A DNA stretch of 64,000 nucleotides. It comes from Lachnospiraceae bacterium. Lineage in GTDB: Bacteria > Bacillota > Clostridia > Lachnospirales > Lachnospiraceae. Below are positions 41,839 to 42,508 of this stretch, one piece after another. A program made the translations under genes and the position numbers. Location of the stretch: contig SVEE01000005.1 in assembly GCA_015057525.1 (NCBI GenBank), forward strand, positions 1-64,000. The letters run 5' to 3'. Under the pieces are notes generated by a model. It did no database searches. It saw only the letters and a program-made list of their open reading frames with translations, and was not told where the DNA came from. The first letter of the stretch is position 1. Each line of letters starts with the position of its first letter.

Positions 41839-42148
41839 CTAAATCCCCTCCTGTAATAAAATCGAACACACGAAGCATCTTAATTTTATCAGCTTTAAAT
41901 TCATTCAAAGAATCATAGCCTATATCTGTAATTGAATAATATTTTCTAATTCGGTTGTTATGCTCTGTGTTGTACGATTCAACCTTGTGCTCAGACTCTA
42001 ATCTTCGTAAAATCGGATACAAGGTGGACTCAGATATATCTATATATTCAGAAACATCCTTAATTATCTGATATCCGTATGAATCTTCTTTACGCAATGC
42101 AGCAAGAACACATAATTCAAGCAATCCTTTTCGTAATTGAACATCCAT
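41831..42148 (-). CDS. PadR-family transcriptional regulator
   Basis: QLRKGLLELCVLAALRKEDSYGYQIIKDVSEYIDISESTLYPILRRLE. Confidence 0.95.
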   Translation of the reverse strand: MDVQLRKGLLELCVLAALRKEDSYGYQIIKDVSEYIDISESTLYPILRRLESEHKVESYNTEHNNRIRKYYSITDIGYDSLNEFKADKIKMLRVFDFITGGDLDE

Positions 42149-42219
42149 ATCAACACCTCCCTATGCACAATACTATACAATACATAGTATTATGTGTCAA
42201 GGGGTATTGCATAAATTAT

Positions 42220-42465
42220 TATGCCAAGTGGTTGGATGACAATTTGGTATGGGAGTTTGTACATAATATATAAATTAGCAGACATTTTGACTGCGTTCTT
42301 AGCGACTGGCGAAATCCACCAGTTACTTAAGACTTAGGCTCGAAGGCATTCCTGAGAGTCTTAGTCGTAGTTACTGATTAGTTTGTCAGCGCGTTGCAGT
42401 TGTCTGCTAATTTAATATTATATACAAGTTCCTGCACCAATTTGTTCATCCAACCACTTGGCATA
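42220..42465. mobile_element. MITE-like / structured repeat element with ~65-nt terminal inverted repeats and three internal hairpins
   Basis: Left arm 42220-42284 (tatgccaagtggttggatga…aaattagcagaca) matches the reverse complement of right arm 42401-42465; first 20 and last 13 nt identical; no ORF. Confidence 0.72.
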
Positions 42466-42477
42466 GAATTCAAAAAA

Positions 42478-42508
42478 AAACCGCCGTGGAACATCCACGA
42501 CGGTTTTG
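42478..42508 (-). terminator. Terminator of AIM24 operon
   Basis: Minus strand AAACCGTCGTGGATGTTCCACGGCGGTTTTTTTTT. Confidence 0.9.

Follow-up and report, generated by a model that had tools for sequence, protein, structure and literature searches.

What is a near-perfect 246-bp palindrome that lies between a PadR-type regulator gene and an AIM24-like gene in a Lachnospiraceae genome, and how did it get there? The window, the whole stretch of DNA analysed, is 64,000 nucleotides long, and the palindrome occupies 42220-42465. A sequence-only reading of the window described two 65-nt inverted arms around a core of three hairpins without an ORF, and proposed either a MITE or a structured ncRNA. 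The coordinates held: the segment folds at -124.9 kcal/mol compared with -56.5 ± 4.7 for dinucleotide shuffles (z = -14.6), which is far from chance. The arms are complementary at 57 of 66 aligned positions and enclose a 116-nt interior, as described. The element is free of genes, and the only frame that enters it, a 64-aa frame on the + strand (42079..42273), just overlaps into the left arm. Its placement between the PadR side and the 3' end of the AIM24 operon was also correct, at 72 nt from the start of the PadR-type gene and 55 nt from the 3' end of the AIM24-like gene. An intrinsic terminator consists of a short G+C-rich stem with a T run, and neither end of the element has a T run. The separate terminator that had been noticed beside the element was found at about 42473-42508. 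Against Rfam release 15 the window copy scored at best 35.3 bits, below the gathering threshold (cut-off 144), and a search with 20 carrier loci matched one unrelated neighbour and left the element unmatched. The repeat family is absent from Rfam and previously uncatalogued. Within the PadR promoter region (42168-42204) is an inverted repeat, ATACTAT...ATAGTAT, with strong conservation in six congeners; it is likely a PadR operator.

BLASTN against the host genome, which the sequence-only reading had suggested as a check, detected 28 copies in 2.35 Mb. A covariance model built from the cores of these copies recovered these 28 with scores of 140-168 bits. Further matches, near 30 bits, came for the most part from the other strand of those copies, and the range between 140 and 30 bits was empty. 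All 28 copies are intact, with no tail of decayed or truncated ones, and all are intergenic, in both orientations. Relative to the core, the flanking gene pairs are same-strand in 9 cases, opposite in 6, convergent in 8 and divergent in 5, so that orientation to the neighbours is mixed. No copy was found in 36 congeneric genomes. In six congeners with the same gene order, between a few and about 60 bp, unlike the arms in sequence, separate the PadR promoter from the terminator, and neither arm is present at this empty site. The missing segment is bounded by ...GTGTCAAGGGGTAT and the A-tract of the terminator (Table 1). The six congeners lack the entire segment, and the simplest reading is a gain in the window lineage. 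Neither the window copy nor its empty sites show an evident target duplication, in agreement with the first impression.

Table 1. Coordinates of the element, its parts and related segments. The + strand of the element is the strand that gives the best fold of the conserved core.
Feature	Position	Strand	Basis
Whole element, 246-bp rod-like hairpin	42220..42465	+	Fold z = -14.6; 28 copies in genome
Left arm, 65 nt	42220..42284	+	Anchored arm alignment
Right arm, 65 nt, complementary to left arm	42401..42465	+	Arm alignment
Conserved core, an unbranched rod of 116 nt, internal loops conserved	42285..42400	+	Copy alignments
Core helix a	42292-42295 with 42395-42398 (span 42292..42398)	+	Pairs mapped to window
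Core helix b	42302-42304, 42306-42308, 42310-42313 with 42382-42385, 42387-42392 (span 42302..42392)	+	Mapped pairs
Core helix c	42320-42323, 42325-42326 with 42370-42371, 42373-42376 (span 42320..42376)	+	Mapped pairs
Apical helix d, 4-nt loop at tip	42331..42366; 42344-42346 with 42351-42353	+	Mapped pairs
Segment missing at same site in six congeners	42208..42470	.	Synteny, empty sites
Neighbouring copies, nearly always inverted	G000:C20:38594-39100 and 93226-93657; L108, L121, L122, L137, L138, L143, L144, L148, L155, L162		

The cloverleaf proposed for the interior was not borne out. Across the 28 copies its three hairpins retain 70%, 80% and 72% of their pairs, and the numbers of double-changed cells in them are 1, 0 and 0. 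By comparison, one rod without branches retains 98.8% of its pairs with 41 double-changed cells, and is the preferred structure. In the 28-copy alignment of the window genome 13 of the 33 core pairs have a double change, and in 68 copies from other genera double compensatory changes occur in 28 of the 33. The number of double-changed cells in these 68 cores is 396, compared with 96 ± 13 after shuffling and at most 55 with slid partners. In the wider alignment, double changes are found in all 10 pairs of helix b, all 6 pairs of helix c and 9 of the 13 pairs of helix d. The internal loops are conserved in sequence, for example TTAGC, GAAATCCAC and TTAGTT. The core has the covarying secondary structure that would be required of a structured ncRNA. 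The sequence-only reading had named, as evidence against itself, a lack of other copies and of covariation in homologs, or presence in every strain at this one site with degraded arms; neither applies, since other copies and strong covariation exist. The copies L160, L161, L162 (G193, G361), L099 and L103 match chiefly at model positions about 33-111, and this subfamily is a shorter core on different arms.

Long arms are present in nearly every copy examined, and their sequence is copy-specific while their pairing is retained. The left arm of the window copy is copy-specific except for the inner ~20 nt, and likeness to other copies begins inside this inner part. Most copies measure 180-380 bp, and most of those outside the window genome about 180-250 bp. 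Among 65 copies outside the window genome, the palindrome closes at CAG on the left in 37 and at CGTC on the right in 31, and the latter number is higher after the outer stems are trimmed. The end signature at the palindrome foot is CAG^...^CGTCC; the window genome's own copies are without CAG/CGTCC ends. Nineteen copies from three genera have a segment of nearly fixed length, 22-26 bp, from CAG to the next conserved block. The outer 12 bp of this segment are 97.4% paired and show double changes at all 12 positions, with 106 double-changed cells compared with 28 ± 5 after shuffling. Some paralog arms, in G290 and G423, are visibly related and differ by paired changes. A motif search of the arms gave weak enrichment, for example of GCCATACT and ACTATGTT.

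Mismatch types differ on one strand. G-U exceeds A-C by 165 to 24 in the core, by 35 to 16 at the inner 45 arm positions of the 28-copy genome and by 21 to 10 in the short arms elsewhere. When all long arms outside the window genome are pooled, the bias is gone (50 to 46), and the G-U claim is therefore limited to the inner arms. Since copies lie in both orientations, strand-biased mutation is not an easy source of the bias. It suggests that the relevant form is a folded single strand, either RNA or ssDNA.

The distribution of the repeat is patchy. Of 397 genomes sampled from the same family, 30 (about 8%), in 28 genera, are matched by the covariance model. In a class-wide sample of 388 genomes there were three carriers, all within this family and none outside it, and BLASTN against phages and plasmids gave no match. 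As far as sampled, the repeat is restricted to one bacterial family. With a second model, the copy number per carrier ranged from 1 to about 50, and 31 carriers together had about 284. Where copies are neighbours, 13 pairs are inverted with the CGTC-side ends outward and the CAG-side ends facing, one is the reverse and one is tandem, as counted by eye from match lists. The genes between neighbouring copies are ordinary, and no element-linked transposase was found there.

How the copies change was followed by comparing orthologs between two congeneric carriers, G162 and G453, whose flanks are about 93% identical. At two loci the orthologous arms are 98-100% identical and the flanks 96-99%, and over 12 elements the arms diverge by 0.048 per site compared with 0.071 in the flanks. 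Unusually fast evolution of the arms can be rejected, as orthologous arms evolve no quicker than flanks. Paralogs with 96-98% identical cores may have arms at or near random similarity; L022 and L024 have unlike arms, and a single aligned position distinguishes their cores. At L142/L198 and L136/L197 (G162 and G453) the orthologs share their arms, whereas one type of apical core has taken the place of another, which is clear evidence of gene conversion among dispersed copies. Three sites that seemed empty in this pair of genomes were considered as insertion sites and rejected as such. Pieces of arms or ends remain there and the breaks lie at or near short direct repeats, 3-5 nt and unequal in length. 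These sites are therefore read as deletions, and are probable deletion scars. No clean insertion difference was found between G162 and G453: sites are filled in both, deletion-like, or, at L140 and L095, unreadable because the flanks differ.

Orthologous arms contain 8 double changes compared with 0.8 expected, 6 of them in the rearranged locus L137. Without L137, at ~5% divergence, 2 double, 6 wobble and 10 breaking changes remain. The direct evidence for compensation in orthologous arms is modest. The six paired changes at L137/L202 were not accepted as compensation, because the locus is rearranged and has a second left arm. In G162 this second left arm, which is like that of G453, lies just outside the present arm, and the locus looks as though a replacement of the element, or its duplication next to itself, had taken place.

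Several explanations of these data have to be weighed. The copies might be a structured RNA family used by the host, in which the folded RNA binds a protein, for RNA stability, 3' end protection or as a regulatory partner, and each copy is kept because it is functional in place. The one-strand G-U bias and the nearly fixed helix length are RNA-like, every copy in the window genome is intact, and the ortholog arms diverge less than their flanks. Against this, the copies lie in mixed orientation to their neighbouring genes, no promoter or terminator stood out as conserved in their surroundings, and the element is carried by few sampled genomes of the family in widely varying number. We regard such a host function as unlikely, though not negligibly so. 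Of the ncRNA proposed by the sequence-only reading, the covarying structure stands, and transcription does not gain support from the mixed orientation of the neighbours; upstream, too, no conserved promoter was noticed. An explanation that we favoured at first is that the arms are made anew at each insertion, either because target DNA is duplicated in inverted orientation or through hairpin-primed synthesis, around a core that is mobile. It would account for paralogs with nearly identical cores and arms that are near-random or, in L022 and L024, unlike, alongside orthologs whose arms are almost identical. Core swapping and the related paralog arms have weakened it. Identical cores can be explained by gene conversion of the core, the paralog arms of G290 and G423 are related by paired differences, arm length is nearly fixed in three genera, and the empty site of the six congeners contains neither arm. 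Arms made anew are now improbable.

The other proposal of the sequence-only reading, a classical MITE, would derive from a DDE transposon by deletion, and would have terminal inverted repeats and target duplications. The element is short, multi-copy and intergenic and has inverted repeats. However, its ends differ in every copy and are the least conserved part, whereas the centre is conserved; no copy that encloses a transposase or has a split core was found, and a target duplication was seen neither at the window copy nor at its empty sites. The two proposals were right in that this is a dispersed repeat and a selected structure, and a classical MITE is mostly refuted because the ends are not conserved; we consider it highly improbable. 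ERIC, the intergenic repeat units of enterobacteria, are imperfect palindromes of 100-200 bp that are intergenic, occur in both orientations and have an unknown mover. The present element is similar in being an imperfect palindrome, intergenic and in both orientations. Unlike ERIC, which are conserved along the whole unit, it has arms that are nearly free in sequence, and pairing alone is kept.

CGTC-tagged REPs are 20-40 bp long, with a stem of 8-9 bp and a loop of 4-5 nt (Di Nocera 2013, PMC3733652). Like the element, they are dispersed extragenic palindromes with CGTC at one foot and CCA at the other, occur mostly as inverted pairs with tags outward, show paired changes in the stem and are not linked to a transposase (PMC3733652). 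The arrangement of neighbouring element copies, with its excess of inverted pairs having CGTC outward, is like that of their head-head dimers. The element could accordingly be a giant member of this superfamily, moved by a RAYT-type Y1 transposase on ssDNA. But it measures 180-380 bp and has a conserved ~116-nt core with internal loops, the copies of the window genome are without tags, and in those copies elsewhere that have them the likeness concerns the presence of CGTC at a foot, not its polarity relative to the stem. The published survey does not list Firmicutes (PMC3733652). Y1 transposases are not enriched in carriers (14 of 24, compared with 11 of 22 non-carriers), and they are absent from the window genome (G000), G117, G394, G423 and others. 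Such a giant REP is quite improbable. Reverse transcriptases are absent from the window genome and from G086, G120, G289, G394, G425 and G439. An association with either enzyme as the mover was rejected, since both are absent from the window genome. The element behaves like REP/ERIC repeats, and it fails the tested features of size, conserved terminal repeats and Y1 or RT association. It falls outside both REP and MITE, the former by its size and the latter by its non-conserved ends.

Two other systems are similar in part. MRSC-65-2 is found in diverse phyla, with a repeated UYCCGG and sometimes near a transposase (PMC11109978). Its long, single covarying stem, its dozens of copies in a genome and its possible role as DNA or RNA are shared with the element (PMC11109978), whereas a spread over phyla, repeated UYCCGG and a nearby transposase were not seen here. 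The intergenic stem-loop repeats of Borrelia plasmids are also repeated and have compensatory changes, and they are plasmid-borne, some being linked to particular protein genes (PMC2674063). No association with particular genes was seen for the element.

We favour, with a probability of roughly 0.57, a non-autonomous dispersed repeat whose folded single strand, either ssDNA or RNA, is under selection and which moves with the help of machinery supplied in trans. Counting against this reading are the lack of a clean insertion difference between G162 and G453, the absence of both Y1 transposases and reverse transcriptases from the window genome, the modest compensation in orthologous arms, the vanished G-U bias in the pooled long arms and the missing CAG/CGTCC ends in the window genome's copies. 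Alongside the dispersal, structure, covariation, absence at the orthologous site and core swapping that were observed, we infer mobility in trans and a single-stranded intermediate. The unit is one long hairpin, with a core of ~110-120 nt and sequence-conserved internal loops on pairing arms whose sequence may be nearly free as long as they pair. Selection, or a correcting process, would act on the folded single strand of one orientation. Trans-acting machinery likely recognises this folded strand and copies or inserts the element into intergenic DNA. After insertion, the arms would drift by paired changes, apical cores are exchanged between copies through gene conversion, and copies may be lost via deletion between short repeats within the palindrome. 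A more specific form is that a mobile element of one bacterial family spreads as a folded single strand through machinery other than a Y1 transposase or reverse transcriptase, and that this machinery recognises a rod shape of ~180 nt and its loops, the arm sequence being irrelevant except for pairing; we offer this tentatively, as a rather unlikely refinement.

Pairing is kept through a near-total turnover of arm sequence, wobble pairs are strand-specific and loops are conserved, and the folded strand therefore seems to be what is selected or corrected. Although dispersed palindromic repeats are common, so clear a test of what selection sees is rare. The family also offers a concrete system for the question of how repeats multiply when they have no resident transposase, and ncRNA searches of such genomes should name or mask it. 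Two neighbours of copies were observed in passing. A TwoAYGGAY RNA (RF01731, 78 bits, cut-off 43) lies at L093:1172-1336 on the - strand, 165 bp from an element copy. In G357, two arrays of 64-bp tandem repeats (L100:745-1256 and 1264-1438) occupy the gap between two inverted copies.
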